NCBI GenBank assembly: GCA_020852965.1
Contig: JADYZV010000039.1
Span: 62,001 to 126,000, forward strand
Length of the DNA stretch: 64,000 nucleotides
Reading direction: 5' to 3'
DNA from: Pirellulaceae bacterium
GTDB taxonomy: Bacteria > Planctomycetota > Planctomycetia > Pirellulales > Pirellulaceae
Position 1 is the first letter of the stretch; every line of letters begins with the position of its first letter. The notes beneath the pieces were generated by a model that was not told the origin of the DNA, ran no database searches, and worked only from the letters and a program-made list of their open reading frames with translations. Of this stretch, positions 45,668 through 64,000 are shown piece by piece. A program made the translations under genes and the position numbers.

Positions 45668-48169
45668 TTACAGCCAGCCTTGGGCAACCAAGCTGTAGCG
45701 CACCACGAGACTGGCGACGACGACGCTAACGATACTCATCAGTTTGATGAGAATGTTTAGGCTGGGGCCGCTGGTATCTTTGAAGGGATCGCCGACGGTG
45801 TCACCCACCACGGCAGCTTTGTGAGCGGGAGAACCCTTGCCCCCCAGCTTGCCACTTTCGATGTATTTCTTGGCGTTATCCCACGAGCCCCCAGCATTGG
45901 ACATAAATAGGGCCACACAAAAGCCCGACGAGAGCGAACCTGCCAGTAGGCCCAACACTCCTCCGACCCCCAGCACGAGGCCTGTCGCGATGGGTGTTAG
46001 CAACCCGAGCAGAGCGGGGAGGACCATCTCCCACTGCGCGGCTCGAGTACTGATCAACACGGGGCGCTCGTAGTCTGGCTTGACTTCGCCGGTAAGGATA
46101 CCTGGCGTTTCGCGCAATTGTCGGCGGACCTCCTCCACCATTCCCGACGCGGCGCGACCGACGGCTTTCATGGTCATCGCGCAGAATACAAAGGTGGTCA
46201 TGGCACCTAAGAACAGCCCGATGAGCACGCGCGGGTTCATCACGTTGGCTTCGTAATAGTTGGTAAAGTCGATGATGGTAGCCGCGCGCAATGGAGTCAG
46301 CCTCGCGCCGCTGGAGATAAAGGCGGCTTGGATTCGATCTTGTTCATGATGAATCTCGATTAGACCTTCAGGCATGCGGTGCGGCCCAGTTGAAAACTTG
46401 ACGTCGTTCCACTGAGGTGCAATGCGTTCATCTCGGCGTGACTCTGGGGTGACTAGGAAGGTATCGATCTGCGACCCCTGTTTGAAAATCACCAATCCAG
46501 GAGACAGCTTGTAGAGTCCGTCGGCATCGAGCGTTTGAGCAGCTTGTATCGACCAGCGTTCAAAACCGATGCGGACTTCTTCCACGTAGGCTGCCAAAAG
46601 TGCGAGAGCGGTCAGTGCAGCCGAGCCGATGGCAAAACCTTTACCGGTCGCTGCCGTCGTGTTACCGAGCGAATCGAGCGCATCGGTTCGCTCGCGAACA
46701 TGGCTCTCCAGTCCGGCCATTTCGGCGTTACCACCCGCGTTGTCGGCGATCGGTCCATAGGCGTCCGTAGCCAGCGTAATACCGAGTGTGCTGAGCATAC
46801 CCACGGCGCTGATACCCACGCCGTATAGTCCTAGCGCAAAGTAGTGCGGGTCGTTTAGATTCCAGCCGCAGGCAAAACCAAACGAAGATATCATGGCGGT
46901 GCAGATGATCAGCACCGGTGCCCAGACGCTCCCCATGCCGTCGGCGATGCCACCAATAATAATAGTGGCGGGGCCCGTTTCGGCTTGGGCAGCCAACCTC
47001 TGTGTTGGGCGATAGTGGTCGCTGGTCGCATATTCGGTATACTTGCCGATCAGCCAGCCCGCTCCCAGGCCAATCATTACACTGAAGGCCACGCCAGGAA
47101 TCGTGCCCCAAAGCAAAGTCCCTGGAATAACAGGCATCAACAACCATGTCAGGCCGAGCGTCGCCACGCAGACCATGATCGACGAAAAATTGATACCGCG
47201 TCCCAGTGCGTCGAGCAAATTCTTTTGGTCGGCATCTTCCTTAGTACGCACCAAATACATGCCAGCGATCGACAGCAATATGCCGACTCCCGCTAAGACC
47301 ATCGGCAGCAAGATCGTCGCCATTTGGTTGGCTTGACGCTGGTCTGCGGTTAGATCGGGAATCAAATTCGGGCTGGCGAAGGCGGCCACTCCCAGGGCGG
47401 CGGTGGCTAGGATTGAACCGCAATACGATTCGTACAAGTCGGCTCCCATGCCTGCCACGTCCCCCACGTTGTCCCCCACATTGTCGGCGATGGTAGCCGG
47501 ATTGCGAGGCGAATCTTCAGACATGCTCTGTTCGACTTTGCCAACCAGGTCGGCGCCGACGTCGGCCGCTTTGGTGAAGATGCCACCGCCTACCCGAGCG
47601 AACAGGGCTTGCGCGCTGGCACCCATGGTGAAACACAGCATGGCAACGGTAATGGCTTCCAGTGAAAGCGCGTGCTCGGCACCGGCAAGCATTGGCCATA
47701 TCCAGTACAGAACTGCAAACCAGATCGTGATGTAGGCCAGTCCTAAACCTACGACGGTCAAGCCAAGCACCGCACCGCTACGAAAAGCGACTCGCAAGCC
47801 TTGGTTCAGTGAAGTTCGCGCTGCCTGGGCGGTGCGCGAGCTGGCTTGCGTCGCGGTCTTCATCCCCAGCCAACCGCTCAACCCTGAAAAGAACCCACCC
47901 GTCAAAAAAGCAATCGGTACGAACTTGCTCTGCAAATTGAAGCCGTACGCGGCTACTGCCAACAAGGCTGCGATGACTAAAAAGACAACGAATACGACGC
48001 GGTACTGTTGACGCAGGTAAGCGTTAGCACCATCGCGGACCGCCGAAGCGATGGCCCGCATATCTTCATTCCCTTCGTCGCATTTCATCATCCATCGATA
48101 AAACCAGAAGGCTTGCACCAGTGCACAAATTGAGCAGGAGAAAGCGACCAACCAAATCACAACGTCCAT
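45668..48169 (-). CDS. hppA: K+-dependent membrane-bound pyrophosphatase (ion pump)
   Basis: 833 residues, longer than the usual 670-770. It couples pyrophosphate hydrolysis to H+ or Na+ pumping. Substrate-site motifs are intact: [47 protein letters not shown] and the C-terminal [29 protein letters not shown] has alanine where K+-independent enzymes have lysine, so the K+-dependent class is indicated. An insertion of about 100 residues ([14 protein letters not shown] to [17 protein letters not shown]) lies between transmembrane helices on the likely periplasmic side. Ion specificity is not decided by what I can see. ATG at 48169. Confidence 0.95.
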
Positions 48170-57587: not shown

Positions 57588-59222
57588 CTAAAGTGTAGTC
57601 TTGCGAGCAACGAAAAAATCAACATGTTCGGCAGACAACGGTTCGTTGCCCAGGATCAAATCAGCGGCGCGTTCGGCCAACATCATCACCGGCGCATAGA
57701 TGTTTCCGTTGGTAACATACGGCATTACCGAAGCATCGACGATCGACAATCCCTTCATTCCGTGAACCGACATTGTCTCGGGGTCTACGACGGAGAGGTC
57801 ATCGGTACCCATTTTGCAAGAACATGATGGATGTAGCGCCGTTTCCGCGTCGCGAGCCACCCAATCCAAGATCTCACTGGGAGTGCGGACCGATGGACCG
57901 GGCGAGAGTTCGCCATCGTTAAACTCTTCGAAAGCGGGTTGATTCAAAATGGACCGCGCGCACTCGACCGCTTCGACCCATTCGCGTCGATCTTCTGGAG
58001 TCGACAAATAGTTGAACTTCATACTCGGAGGGGCGGTCGGATCGGTCGACGTGATTTTGATCGCTCCCCGCGAATTGGAGTACATCGGACCGACGTGAAC
58101 TTGGTATCCATGCCCACACGCGGGTGAAGATCCGTCGTATCGCACCGCCAGCGGCAGAAAGTGAAACATCAAATTGGGGTAGACGACATCGTCGTTGCTG
58201 CGCGCAAATCCACCTGCTTCAAAATGGTTGGTCGAAGCCGCACCGGATCGAAACAGCAACCACTGCAGTCCAAGTTGCGGCTTGCGATACCACTTCATGT
58301 AAGGGTTCATCGACACCTTTTGTTTGCAGGCGTGCTGGACATACACCTCCAAATGATCTTGCAGATTCTCGCCGACCCCAGGCAGATCGTGAATAACGTC
58401 GATCCCCAACTGACTCAACTCCACCCCATTGCCAATTCCGGATAACTGCAACAACTGAGGCGAGTTGATTGCACCCGCACACATGACGACCTGCCCCCCC
58501 ATGAATTTTTGACCGTTCGCTTCAACACCGATGATGCGTTTGCCATCATTCAGTAGGCGCGTCGTCAGCACCTGCGTCTTGACTGTGAGATTCTTCCGTT
58601 TTTTGATCGGATGGTAGTAGGCTCGCGAGGCGCTCAATCGCCGGCCGCGACGGATATTGCGGTCGAACCGCGCAAAGCCTTCTTGTTGATAACCGTTGAC
58701 ATCATCGGTCAGCGGAAAACCGGCTTGCTGTGCCGCAGCCAAGAAGGCCCTGAATAGTGGATTGGTCGCTGGTCCGCGTTCCAAGATCAACGGGCCATCA
58801 TCGCCACGGTACGAGTCCCCGCCCGCCAGGCAGTTCTCCATCTTCTTGAAGTACGGTAGGCAATGTGAAAAATCCCACTGGTCCATTCCTGGATCGGCGG
58901 CCCAGCGCTGGTAATCCAGCGGATTGCCACGTTGGAAAATCATACCATTGATACTGCTCGACCCGCCCAGCACCTTACCGCGCGCATGAAAAATCCGACG
59001 CCCTTCCATGTTTGGCTCGGGATCGGATTCGTAACACCAATCGTAGCGTTTGTTTCCGATTGGAATCGACAGTGCTGCTGGCATGTGAATGAACACATCC
59101 CACCAGTAATCGGGTCGACCGGCTTCCAGCATCAGCACGCGATTCGCGGGGGCGGCGCTCAAGCGATTCGCCAGCACGCAACCGGCCGATCCGCCACCGA
59201 CGATGATAAAATCGTACTGCAC
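57588..59222 (-). CDS. betA: Choline dehydrogenase (GMC oxidoreductase)
   Basis: 544 residues starting with GTG at 59222, one base into the betB stop (TAGTG). Oxidises choline to betaine aldehyde with FAD. The GMC features are [19 protein letters not shown] (about 4-22), [18 protein letters not shown], and the C-terminal active-site region [10 protein letters not shown] and [20 protein letters not shown]. Length and these motifs agree with bacterial BetA. Third gene of a minus-strand operon: symporter, betB, betA. All three are overlapped or abutting, so expression is probably coupled. Confidence 0.92.
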
Positions 59223-60661
59223 TATAAATCCCCCGTTTCAACGTAGACCGTCTTCAGTTGCGTGTAGTGTTGGATGGCCCACTCCGAGTTTTCACGACCG
59301 ATGCCCGATTGTTTGTAGCCGCCAAAGGGGATCTCGATCGGAGTGATGTTGTAGGTGTTGATCCAGCATGTGCCCGCTTGAATCTGGGAAATTACGCGAT
59401 CAGCTCGACTGAGGTCGTTGGTAAAGACACCTGCCGCCAAGCCAAAGTCCGTCGCATTCGCCCGGGCGATGACCTCGTCCTCGTCGGAGAACGATAAAAG
59501 GCTGAGGACCGGTCCGAAAATTTCTTCCTGGACGATTGTCATTTCGTCACGGCACTCGGAAAAGATCGTTGGTTGGACGAAGTTGCCCCGCTCACCGACT
59601 TGATTCCCGCCGCATACCAAATCGGCCCCCTCCTGCTTTCCTTTGGCGATATAGTCTAAGACGGACTGGCAATGCTCAGGGCTGATCAAGCTGCCGATCT
59701 CGGTCTTAGGGTCGAGCGGGTCGCCGATCACGAGCTGCTGGGTTGCGGTCTTCAGTTGTTCGAGAAACGGGCGGCGAACATTGTCGTGGACGAATACGCG
59801 AGTCCCGTTGGAACAGATTTCACCCTGAGTAAAGAAGTTGGCAAGCAACGTTGCCTTCACCGCATTTTCGATGTTCGCGTCGTCAAAAATCAGCAGAGGT
59901 GACTTGCCACCTAGTTCCAACGTCAAGTGTTTCAGCTGTGATGCCGCAGCGGCCATGATCCTCCTACCGGTTTCGACCCCGCCGGTGAGCGAGACCTTTT
60001 CAATACCTGGGTGTTCGACCAGCAATTGTCCCGTTCGATGGTCGCCCAGCACGACATTGAACAGGCCATCCGGTAATCCGGCGTCGCGGAAGGTGCGAGC
60101 GAGTTCGAGTGCCGTGAGTGGCGTCAATTCGCTCGGCTTGAAGATCATCGCATTGCCGGCGGCCAGCGCTGGAGCCGCTTTCCAACAAGCGATCTGTAAT
60201 GGATAGTTCCATGCGCCGATCCCGGCGACGACGCCCAACGGTTCTCGAATCGTGTAGGCATAGTTCTTGCCGAGGCGGTAGTGTTCGCCCTTGATCGTCG
60301 GTGCAATTCCCGCAAAGTACTCCAGTGCATCGGCACCCGATTGAACATCGACCGAGCCTGCTTCGGAGATCGGCTTGCCGGTGTCGTAGACCTCAAGCAT
60401 TGCCAATTCGTCGTTCCTCTGCCGCAACAGATCGGCTGCCCTGTGCAGAATTCTTCCTCGCTGGGTGCCTGTCATCGCTCGCCACGACTTCTGGGCAGCG
60501 ATTGCACTTTCCACCGCTGCATTTACCTCGGCATCGAGCGACAATTCAACATCACAAATTGCCTCGTTTGTGGCGGGATAATAAGTGATCAAACTCTCGC
60601 CCGCGCTCGATGGGCGTGATGTCCCATTGATAAAACTTTGTTGTGTTTTCAGTGAGATCAT
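59222..60661 (-). CDS. betB: Betaine aldehyde dehydrogenase
   Basis: 479 residues. NAD(P)-dependent aldehyde dehydrogenase making glycine betaine. Visible motifs: [47 protein letters not shown], catalytic Glu in LELGGKSPL, the nucleophile Cys in [12 protein letters not shown], and [33 protein letters not shown] near the C-terminus is typical of BetB. Its ATG overlaps the symporter stop by four bases (ATGA), and its stop abuts the betA start. Confidence 0.93.
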
Positions 60662-62271
60662 ATCTTGCGAGTCTTCAATTCTCGTGGTTTGGAAAGGTGC
60701 CCTGTCAGACGCGAGACGATGAGGATCGTGAGCAGGCCCGCCAGCATGCTAGTTGTGCGGAATGGAAAATTGACTACGTCATCCACGTCGACCATCGGGT
60801 AGGGAATTATTCGCGGCAATCCCAGCGCGGGCTCGCCCCCGCCAAGTCGCAACATAGCGGCGACGATGAAACCAGCGAAACTTCCAATCGCATTGGCGCG
60901 CCGATCGAAAAGCGCTGTCACCAACTGAGCAAACAGGATGCAGTAGACTAGGTCGCTGCATAGAAACCATAATGCATAGACGCTCTGGATTTTCAAGGCG
61001 AGCAAGGTCGCGGTAATGCCGACAATCCAAATCAACCGACGAACCACCTTGTTCAGTGGAATGGCCGACGGCTTGCCTCTGGTCAAGGGGCGATAGACGT
61101 TCCACACGCCCATCGACGAGGCCGACAAGATCGATGAATCGACGCTGCTCATCACCGCTGCGGCGAGTGCCCCCAGCCCGATCGTAGCCACGATGGGCGG
61201 GGCAAGGTGCTTTAGGACATAGGGTAATGCGATCGCGGAGTTTTCGGGGCCACTTAAACCCATACTCGCCCAATCGGTCGTTGCGCAAATCATCCCGATC
61301 GCCACAGCCGGCAGCGAGGCGACTAGGCACAGTACGCCCGCGCCCACCGACAACCAAGCAGCCGTGTTTTCTGTCTTGCTCGATAACACACGCTGAAAGT
61401 AGACATGCCAGGGAATCCCCCCAAACACCAGCAGCAGCGCGTAGTCCCACCACAAGTAGCGCGTGTCGCCCCAAGACCGAGGTGGGGTCAACGACGCCGC
61501 ATCCCCCAGCTTCACTTGATAGGCAACATAGAGCCCAGTGAATCCCGATTCGGGCATCACAAACGGCAACGCGAGTAGCAGCCCAACCATCAATATGGCC
61601 AACTGAAAAATGTCCGTCATTGCCACCGCCCGCATCCCACCCAGGGCCGTGTAGGCGATGGCGATCGCGGCACTGAGTACGATCGAGAGACTGAAGTTAA
61701 TTTCTAAGATGAATCCAAACGTCGTTCCGAGTGCCGTCAAGATCGCGGCGGTCCAAAACACTTCGCCAAGTAACGCGGGCAAATACAACACGGTTGCCAT
61801 TGATTGGCCGAAACGGTCTTCTAGCGGGTCGAGCATGGTCGTGTAGTTTCTACGGCGCATGGGACGGGCAAAGATCAGCCCGCCTAGGATGAGGCTAAGT
61901 GCGTAGCCCCACGGCGCTTGCGCCCATACTAAACCGGAACTGTACACCGCCTCGGCGGTCCCGTTGATAAACCCACCACCAACCCAGGTTGCCGTCATCG
62001 TCAGCAGCGCCGTAATCAATGGCAGCGACCGACCTGCAAGCAGCATCTCCTCGACTCGCATATCTTGGGTTCGCGCGGCTGACAATCCCAGTGAGAACAT
62101 GGCCGAGTAGAAGAAAGCCAGCGCAAGATAGCCGCTCCAGAAAAGCTGGCCGTTCACGTAGTGCAGTACCCCCCCGAGCGATGTCAGCGCGGCAAACAGA
62201 GCGATACCAGCCAGCAGCGAGCGAATTCGGTGTTGGGAATTACGAATTGCGATATCGACTTGCTGCTTCAT
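60658..62271 (-). CDS. Sodium:solute symporter resembling animal high-affinity choline transporter CHT1 (SLC5A7)
   Basis: 537 residues from ATG 62271 (TTG 62313 is possible upstream). A 13-14 helix SSS-family transporter. Segments agree closely with my memory of CHT1: TMTATWVGGGFINGTAEAVY, GLVWAQAPWGYALSLILGGL, LLVFGGIPWHVYFQRVLSS, AAVMSSVDSSILSASSM, ALWFLCSDLVYCILFAQL and LRLGGGEPALGLP. It carries an extra N-terminal hydrophobic segment (SLLAGIALFAALTSLGGVL). Being first in an operon with betB and betA, it very probably imports choline with Na+ for betaine synthesis. CHT1-specific assignment is from motif memory, not alignment. Confidence 0.88.
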   Translation of the reverse strand: MKQQVDIAIRNSQHRIRSLLAGIALFAALTSLGGVLHYVNGQLFWSGYLALAFFYSAMFSLGLSAARTQDMRVEEMLLAGRSLPLITALLTMTATWVGGGFINGTAEAVYSSGLVWAQAPWGYALSLILGGLIFARPMRRRNYTTMLDPLEDRFGQSMATVLYLPALLGEVFWTAAILTALGTTFGFILEINFSLSIVLSAAIAIAYTALGGMRAVAMTDIFQLAILMVGLLLALPFVMPESGFTGLYVAYQVKLGDAASLTPPRSWGDTRYLWWDYALLLVFGGIPWHVYFQRVLSSKTENTAAWLSVGAGVLCLVASLPAVAIGMICATTDWASMGLSGPENSAIALPYVLKHLAPPIVATIGLGALAAAVMSSVDSSILSASSMGVWNVYRPLTRGKPSAIPLNKVVRRLIWIVGITATLLALKIQSVYALWFLCSDLVYCILFAQLVTALFDRRANAIGSFAGFIVAAMLRLGGGEPALGLPRIIPYPMVDVDDVVNFPFRTTSMLAGLLTILIVSRLTGHLSKPRELKTRKI

Positions 62272-62375
62272 TCCTATCCGTTTGTTCTTCGTCGATGGCG
62301 ACGGTGACCGCAATGTGCGAGGTCGTCAACCTTTTGTCATCTCAATGGGGTTGTTACGGCACGCTCGCGTCCTAA

Positions 62376-62642: not shown

Positions 62643-64000
62643 TTGACTTCCAACAAGACCACAACGGAACTCCCTCGACTTCGCTTCGGCAAGCATATCG
62701 AGATACACCCAGTCGTTTTTCCTGCGGCTGTGCTGATATTGGTTGCGCTGGTCGCAGTCAGCATTCTGTACGGTGGTCCCGACATGTTAGGTCGCTGCAT
62801 TCGTCTTCGCGACTGGATCGGCGATCGCTTCGGCTGGCTGTACGTAGCCTCGATGTCCGGCTTTCTAGGTTTTGCGATCTGGTTAGCGATGGGACGTTAC
62901 GCTCATATCCGGCTTGGACGCGACGACGAACAGCCCGAGTATAGCACTTTGTCGTGGTTCGCCATGTTGTTCAGCGCAGGGATGGGAATTGGCCTGCTAT
63001 TTTTCAGCGTGGCTGAGCCGATATCCCATTTCCAATCTCCACCACCTGGATTCGCCGAAGGCTTGAATGCGACCCGTTTGGCGATGGCCGTCACGATTTT
63101 CCACTGGGGACTACATCCTTGGGCACTGTACGCAATCGTTGGACTGTCTCTGGCCTTTTTTGGCTTTCGCCTCGGGATGCCGCTCAGCTTTCGATCGTTG
63201 CTGCACCCCGTTTTAGGTGATCGCGTTTGGGGGCGTCTGGGCGATGTGGTTGATACGCTGGCTATTATCGCAACACTGATGGGCGTAGCGACTTCGTTGG
63301 GCATTGGCGCCAAGCAAGTCAACGCGGGGCTGTCGTTCCTATTGGGGATTCCCAGTGGAACGGGAACGCAAATCAGCCTAATTGCCGCAATCACAGCCTT
63401 AGCAACCATTTCAGTGGTATTGGGATTGGATGCCGGCATTCGCCGCTTGAGTGAACTAAATATCGTCTTGGCGTTTGGCTTGATGCTACTTCTGATTTTC
63501 GGTGGTGGCCTAGTCGCGTTTTTGAGCGCATCGATCGAGAACCTGGGGGCTTATCTACAGATCCTACCGTTCAATTCATTTCGTACAGGCGCGTTTAATT
63601 CGGCGAGTCGAACTTGGGTGAACGAGTGGACGGTGTTCTACTGGGCGTGGTGGATCAGTTGGTCGCCGTTCGTCGGGATGTTCATCGCTCGTGTCTCGCG
63701 TGGCAGGACGATTCGCGAGTTTATTACGGGTGTGGTGCTGGTGCCCACGGTCGTCGCGGCGTTGTGGCTGACGGCCTTTGGTACAGCCACTTTGCGTCAG
63801 CATACTGAGTTTCTAGAGCAAGCGGCTCTTCAAGCAGACTCGACAAACACACCGTCGATGGCGGGGCTGCCGCAGTATTGGGTCGGCGAACTGGATGCGA
63901 ATAAGCAGTTGATACGGCAGGACGACGGCACATTCCGGCGAACCCAGGTATCGCTCACGGCAGTCGAGTATTTGTCGTCTCCGGTCGTAACGCCCGACGG
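62643..64000 (+). CDS. BCCT-family betaine/choline transporter, N-terminal part, runs off the window end
   Basis: 452 codons are visible and the frame is open at 64000. The start is uncertain: no ATG precedes the domain, and TTG 62643 (LTSNKTTTELPRLRFG) is the best candidate. BCCT features: EIHPVVFPAAVLILVALVAV (TM1), WLYVASMSGFLGFAIWLA, LFSAGMGIGLLFFSVAEPIS, HWGLHPWALYAIVG, GVATSLGIGAKQVNAGL, and EWTVFYWAWWISWSPFVGMF with the aromatic substrate box. AGMGIG matches Na+-coupled BetP rather than H+-coupled BetT. An extended loop (about residues 395-452) follows a late helix. Together with the divergent bet operon it forms an osmoprotection island. Confidence 0.88.
   Translation, partial: MTSNKTTTELPRLRFGKHIEIHPVVFPAAVLILVALVAVSILYGGPDMLGRCIRLRDWIGDRFGWLYVASMSGFLGFAIWLAMGRYAHIRLGRDDEQPEYSTLSWFAMLFSAGMGIGLLFFSVAEPISHFQSPPPGFAEGLNATRLAMAVTIFHWGLHPWALYAIVGLSLAFFGFRLGMPLSFRSLLHPVLGDRVWGRLGDVVDTLAIIATLMGVATSLGIGAKQVNAGLSFLLGIPSGTGTQISLIAAITALATISVVLGLDAGIRRLSELNIVLAFGLMLLLIFGGGLVAFLSASIENLGAYLQILPFNSFRTGAFNSASRTWVNEWTVFYWAWWISWSPFVGMFIARVSRGRTIREFITGVVLVPTVVAALWLTAFGTATLRQHTEFLEQAALQADSTNTPSMAGLPQYWVGELDANKQLIRQDDGTFRRTQVSLTAVEYLSSPVVTPD

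Follow-up and report, generated by a model that had tools for sequence, protein, structure and literature searches.

A CHT1-type symporter gene coupled to betB and betA in a Pirellulaceae bacterium, and the choline-linked gene contexts of its bacterial relatives

What does a bacterial protein that resembles the neuronal choline transporter CHT1 (SLC5A7) do beside the enzymes that turn choline into glycine betaine, and how did its gene come to be there? The gene lies at 60658-62271 on the minus strand of a 64,000-nucleotide stretch of DNA (hereafter the window), positions 62,001 to 126,000 of contig JADYZV010000039.1 from a Pirellulaceae bacterium (assembly GCA_020852965.1; phylum Planctomycetota, class Planctomycetia, order Pirellulales). 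Its open reading frame (ORF) encodes 537 aa from an ATG at 62271, or 551 aa from an alternative in-frame TTG at 62313, and the product is a full-length sodium/solute symporter (SSS; Pfam PF00474) that is about 40 residues longer at the N-terminus than human CHT1. A sequence-only reading had described a CHT1 look-alike in a betB/betA operon; that observation is confirmed as a whole, and all four CHT1-type peptides quoted in it are present in the translation. BetS, which the same reading counted among the SSS proteins, belongs to the betaine/choline/carnitine transporter (BCCT) family, a minor slip. The window protein very probably belongs to the CHT (SLC5A7-type) branch of these symporters and is a Na+-coupled choline importer that would feed BetB and BetA.

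In a phmmer search of PDB chains, the window symporter scores 583 bits against sfCHT, the choline transporter of Salimicrobium flavidum (9rws), and 383 bits against human CHT1 (8j74, 9bfi), while any other chain among the matches listed reaches at most 43.1 bits. BLASTP gives 53.7% identity to sfCHT and 44.7% to human CHT1, with vSGLT, PutP, and PanF only 25-26% identical over 378-440 columns; the corresponding scores are 379 bits for CHT1 versus 52-66 for PutP, PanF, and vSGLT. A maximum-likelihood tree of 66 sequences sets the window protein, sfCHT, and human CHT1 apart from 12 other SSS proteins with support of 100/100, and a second tree of 54 sequences, with an enlarged CHT set (14 further CHTs from the host class) and six outgroup sequences, supports the CHT group at 100/99. 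The related loci behind these trees are the best 80 of 317 relatives, the distant ones unseen; for speed, the first tree drew on 42 of the 80 and the second on 22, and a 92-sequence tree made by a quick method drew on all of them. The trees hold no other human SLC5 proteins, which were compared with the window protein by score only. An AlphaFold model built from 38 sequences (predicted local distance difference test score, 83.6; predicted template-modeling score, 0.85) has human CHT1 as its nine best Foldseek matches in the PDB (E 8e-29 to 1e-24), followed by SGLT2 (E 7e-14), and aligns with human CHT1 at template-modeling scores of 0.75-0.81 over the query length. sfCHT is not among the 50 Foldseek matches listed, perhaps because the library ends on 8 April 2026. 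The PDB scores, both trees, and the fold search of the predicted model bear out the earlier CHT1-type call, and the symporter branches with CHT1, not with the proline, pantothenate, or generic SSS proteins.

The residues that line the transport site agree with this placement. Human site numbering follows the available text of PMC11589582 and sfCHT numbering that of PMC13220886. The five aromatic residues of the CHT1 choline cage (W62, Y91, W141, W254, W406) correspond to W96, Y123, W173, W288, and W435 in the window protein, which also keeps all residues compared at the Na2 site (A94, T95, V97, Q223), the Na3 site (D220, D378, S379), and the exit gate (R81, Q293, R294, S297). In CHT1, according to the available text of the structural paper, the choline hydroxyl is bound by the W62 backbone carbonyl and by a Cl- held in the VGGGY loop, whose ligand is the backbone nitrogen of Y67 (PMC11589582). 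This loop reads 97VGGGF101 in the window protein, with W173 at the position of W141. Among 91 bacterial CHT sequences, window and sfCHT included, W62, Y91, W141, W254, W406, D188, Q259, and R260 (CHT1 numbering) are invariant in all 91; the five-aromatic cage as a set occurs in 0 of the 12 other SSS sequences. The likeness to human CHT1 (PDB 8J74, 9BFI, and others) thus covers the modeled fold, the cage letters, and the ion-site letters, whereas the human protein serves acetylcholine synthesis and has Y67, Y407, and S243 where the window protein has F101, F436, and Y277. Compared with sfCHT, 13 of 13 Na+-site, cage, and exit-gate residues are the same letters; sfCHT differs in sitting in another subclade, with Bacillota sequences, and in Y104 and Y446, both of which are F here. 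E. coli PutP, PanF, and ActP share the SSS superfamily with the window protein but align with only a portion of it, at 25-27% identity (28-61 bits), and are without the aromatic cage. A separate observation concerns the CHT-like protein of a Priestia megaterium plasmid (L015:7941-9653): it has A at the Na3 positions D349 and S350, and every other sequence among the 91 CHTs keeps the D. Its ion coupling may be altered or lost.

The operon layout gives a direct indication of what the symporter might carry. Immediately downstream on the minus strand lie betB (59222-60661), encoding a 479-aa betaine-aldehyde dehydrogenase (NF009725, 757 bits, cut-off 593; TIGR01804, 655 bits, about 13 under its cut-off of 668.6), and betA (57588-59222), encoding from a GTG start a 544-aa choline dehydrogenase of the glucose-methanol-choline (GMC) oxidoreductase family (TIGR01810, 794 bits, cut-off 732; NF002550, 831 bits, cut-off 605). 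The symporter stop and the betB start share 4 nt (ATGA), and the betB stop and the betA start share 1 nt (TAGTG). The translational coupling and the choline-to-betaine operon that the sequence-only reading had proposed are supported by these overlaps and by the profile scores, respectively, and the three genes look like one coupled transcript. A promoter and terminator scan found no excess over shuffled sequence (2 versus a shuffle mean of 2.9, and 5 versus 6.0), and therefore we claim no promoter. At E <= 0.001, BetA matches nothing else in the 8.4-Mb genome, and BetB has eight weaker matches elsewhere, the best 43% identical. In the working that we propose, the symporter would import choline together with Na+, as shown for its relative sfCHT; the quaternary ammonium would be held in the aromatic cage, with Na+ at Na2 and Na3 and Cl- at the 97VGGGF101 loop. 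The translationally coupled BetA and BetB would then oxidize choline to glycine betaine, which would serve as an osmoprotectant and possibly as a nutrient.

A bacterial choline transporter of this type is already in print. The available text on sfCHT reports Na+-dependent choline uptake, inhibition by hemicholinium-3 (HC-3), and cryogenic electron microscopy structures (PMC13220886; PDB 9RWS, 9RWT), calls the physiological role of prokaryotic CHTs unclear, and leaves Cl- dependence open (PMC13220886). Since sfCHT was published in 2026, the window protein is not new as a kind, and the suggestion that it would make a useful prokaryotic model holds for it as a CHT member and not as the first such model (PMC13220886, available text). 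The terms "operon", "gene cluster", and "phylogen-" do not occur in the main text of the sfCHT paper (PMC13220886), nor does CHT occur in the available text of a 2021 review of prokaryotic SSS transporters (PMC7918813). The present analysis adds the CHT-bet operon and a pattern of two gene contexts among bacterial CHT loci.

This pattern emerges from the genes within 4 kb of the CHT gene in the 80 related loci. Choline-oxidation genes (betA, betB, gbsA, or gbsB) are found in 24 of the 80 and a phosphatidylcholine-synthase-like gene (Pcs; a CDP-alcohol phosphatidyltransferase) in 27, leaving 29 with neither. At the tblastn identity thresholds used (BetA 45%, BetB 50%, GbsA 50%, GbsB 45%, Pcs 33%), none of the 80 has both, a result that depends on those thresholds, because L043 comes close: in addition to its Pcs-like gene it carries a GMC oxidoreductase with 38% likeness to BetA. 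Three Pcs queries were taken from loci that were themselves counted (L007/L136, L072, L140). No choline-gene neighbor was found at 20 control loci of non-CHT SSS genes, 11 from the window's own genome and six and three from two genomes of its order, none from Bacteroidota or Bacillota. In the 51 positive loci, the nearest choline gene stands less than 500 bp away in 33 and 500-4000 bp away in 18, with none beyond 4 kb. Only 36 of the 80 loci span about 8 kb on both flanks, and among the 48 whose flanks each reach 3 kb or more the split is 20 bet, 14 pcs, and 14 none. Many of the 29 context-free loci, not all, are truncated; the neighbors of some (AlkZ-like, EAD11, an SBF transporter, and others) suggest no choline link. 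On the 92-sequence quick tree, with 60 sequences labeled, the two contexts require only four changes versus 19.8 in shuffles.

The oxidation context has several forms. The closest relative of sfCHT, from Salimicrobium halophilum (L078, 97% identical), has gbsA and betA adjoining, an arrangement relevant to the physiological role described as unclear in the sfCHT paper (PMC13220886). At gbsAB-type loci (Priestia megaterium plasmid L015, Bacillaceae), the CHT gene adjoins the choline-to-betaine pathway as it does in the window; these loci differ from it in having the CHT gene on the opposite strand and, in some, a GbsB-like alcohol dehydrogenase. In the Algoriphagus and Membranihabitans loci L037, L039, and L081, a GMC oxidoreductase stands between CHT and betB that is only 30-32% like BetA (far below the betA cut-off in L037), and therefore another enzyme may oxidize choline there.

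The second context points to phosphatidylcholine synthesis as a possible further use of the choline imported by bacterial CHTs. Of ten neighbors scanned, six Pcs-like proteins hit each of the five phosphatidylcholine-synthase models in NCBIfam, always below the cut-off; the check covered some of the neighbors, and with scores of this kind the enzyme name is likely, not certain. A CDP-alcohol motif was counted in 48 of 48 loci, anywhere in the locus and not tied to the Pcs match. A Pcs-like gene adjoins CHT in L136-L143, L185-L193, L195-L198, and 27 of L016-L095, and the two ORFs overlap in L140 and L141. An alpha/beta hydrolase gene (L140:10631-11497) runs divergently from one such pair of the host family and may be another connection to lipids or choline esters. 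Of 23 further CHT genes from the host phylum, 21 adjoin a Pcs-like gene and none a Bet gene (20 of 22 genomes, because the L012/L141 genome contributes two copies, the second being L014/L143), and the window operon is therefore an exception. No Pcs gene was found in the window's genome with a protein query that matched four of four positive genomes; the NF045886 profile was uninformative for this search, as it matched no control genome. Within the literature searched, which did not extend to subscription papers, we found no paper joining CHT1-type transporters with Pcs.

Where, then, did the exceptional operon come from? The sisters of the window symporter are four Spirochaetota metagenome proteins (100/100 in the 66-sequence tree; 100/99 in the 54-sequence tree), whose loci, L016-L019, carry CHT, betB, and betA in the same order and on the same strand as the window, at 60-62% identity for CHT, 58-60% for BetB, and 66-67% for BetA. 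The ORFs there adjoin or stand up to about 280 bp apart, whereas those of the window overlap. Sisters with the same gene order suggest horizontal acquisition; the transporter gene, betB, and betA most likely came together by horizontal transfer from a Spirochaetota-related source, the transfer then probably having run into the window's lineage. Within the host phylum, CHT genes have a scattered distribution: three of 199 genomes drawn from the phylum and seven of 119 from the family carry one at E <= 1e-60, as do 15 of 397 from the class at E <= 1e-80. The window's own genome is among the positives in all three counts, and the family and class draws list five further genomes of its genus, none of them with a CHT gene. 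BetA at E <= 1e-100 occurs in three of the 119 family genomes, the window's included, the other two being only 41% identical. A plasmid search for CHT at E 1e-60 returned one record. Base composition offers no hint of transfer: G+C is ordinary (0.52-0.58) over the operon stretch, with no anomaly. The same ordinary G+C, and the possession of CHT genes by other members of the host phylum, would suit an operon inherited vertically there and lost elsewhere. The AU (approximately unbiased) test, however, rejects a clade of the window protein with the host-phylum CHTs (p 0.00017; p 0.00015 with L006 included), the neighbor of those CHTs is Pcs-like and not Bet, and the nearest BetA in the family draw falls well short of the identity seen in Spirochaetota. 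We regard vertical inheritance as improbable, and acquisition of the unit by transfer as the better account.

Several points weigh against the assignment of the window protein as a choline importer. We infer choline transport from homology, binding site, and operon, and the SSS outgroup sequences form long branches flagged by the tree program in both trees. Y67, which lines the choline site of CHT1, is replaced by F101, a change common to the window protein, its four Spirochaetota sisters, and seven other sequences. Two positions that contact HC-3 in human CHT1 are altered (Y407 to F436, S243 to Y277). The contacts E73, L246, and L247 are kept as E107, L280, and L281. Human Y407A and S243R mutants respond more weakly to HC-3 in the available text (PMC11589582). 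sfCHT likewise has Y at the S243 position, yet is inhibited by HC-3; the window protein may be sensitive to HC-3 and may depend on Cl-. Finally, a BCCT-family gene (betaine/choline/carnitine type; PF02028, 559 bits) occupies 62643-63998 on the plus strand, divergent from the operon and cut by the window end. Its start lies about 370 bp upstream of the symporter ATG, and the full protein (591 aa, L134:14644-16419) has as its best model the glycine betaine BCCT NF047988, at 514 bits under a cut-off of 650. The gene may share regulation with the bet operon, and, because the adjoining BCCT could carry choline or betaine, choline may have another way into the cell besides the symporter.

This neighbor also lends itself to a different assignment, in which the CHT-branch symporter has another main amine substrate (glycine betaine, carnitine, or dimethylglycine) and the BCCT protein is the choline importer. 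Family membership alone does not fix the substrate, and the Y67 to F101 change is in keeping with such a shift. Against it, the cage residues are identical to those of the tested sfCHT and CHT1, the choline-hydroxyl-binding VGGGY loop is kept except for that one letter, and the relatives adjoin two unrelated choline-using enzyme sets, for oxidation and, by likeness, for phosphatidylcholine synthesis; we hold this assignment to be improbable. That the protein is an ordinary PutP, PanF, or generic SSS protein, CHT1-like only through shared SSS motifs, is ruled out for practical purposes by the scores, trees, and fold search above, even though Pfam and NCBIfam name only the superfamily (PF00474; TIGR00813, 148.8 bits, below the cut-off of 184). 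The PutP and PanF equivalog cut-offs are not reached (TIGR02121, 75.3 bits versus 515.5; TIGR02119, 62.3 bits versus 328.05). A Na+-coupled choline importer of the CHT branch remains the reading that we prefer.

The sequence-only reading had gone further and given the protein a bearing on the origin of animal CHT1, and here its interpretation, sound for family, site, and operon, lacks support. The AU tests reject a clade of the window protein with human CHT1 (p 0.001) and one that also takes in its Spirochaetota sisters (p 0.0022), which rules out a special kinship, and 45 of 90 other bacterial CHT sequences outscore the window protein against human CHT1. In the enlarged 54-sequence tree, human CHT1 falls among the host-class proteins L185-L188 (86/88), all four of which stand beside a Pcs-like gene, and this position is a lead. 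It invites the speculation that CHTs form a two-pathway choline supply that switches between Pcs and Bet, with animal CHT1 derived from an older Pcs-linked stock like that of the host phylum and the window operon a later, transferred rewiring from lipid supply to osmoprotection. We hold this scenario to be unlikely as it stands. Alternative positions for human CHT1 go unrejected in the AU tests, namely outside all bacterial CHTs (p 0.44 and 0.18 in two tests) and with a large group of Bacillota, Bacteroidota, Spirochaetota, the window protein, and L006 (p 0.25). The 66-sequence tree differs in placing it with two other host-family sequences (94/63), and human CHT1, the single animal sequence in the trees, has a long branch. 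A title-level literature search, with subscription papers outside its coverage, found no paper on a bacterial origin of CHT1. Elsewhere in the window, 45668-48169 on the minus strand encodes a membrane-bound inorganic pyrophosphatase (PF03030).

These findings give a gene-context answer to the role that the sfCHT paper left open: the window operon and 51 of the 80 related loci place CHT genes beside choline-using enzymes, whose product would be betaine or, judging by sequence likeness, phosphatidylcholine. Given how often this adjacency recurs, choline is the likely substrate of the bacterial clade as a whole. The CHT loci supply model operons beyond sfCHT alone, and they offer a testable route from a bacterial lipid or osmolyte supply system to the neuronal choline transporter.

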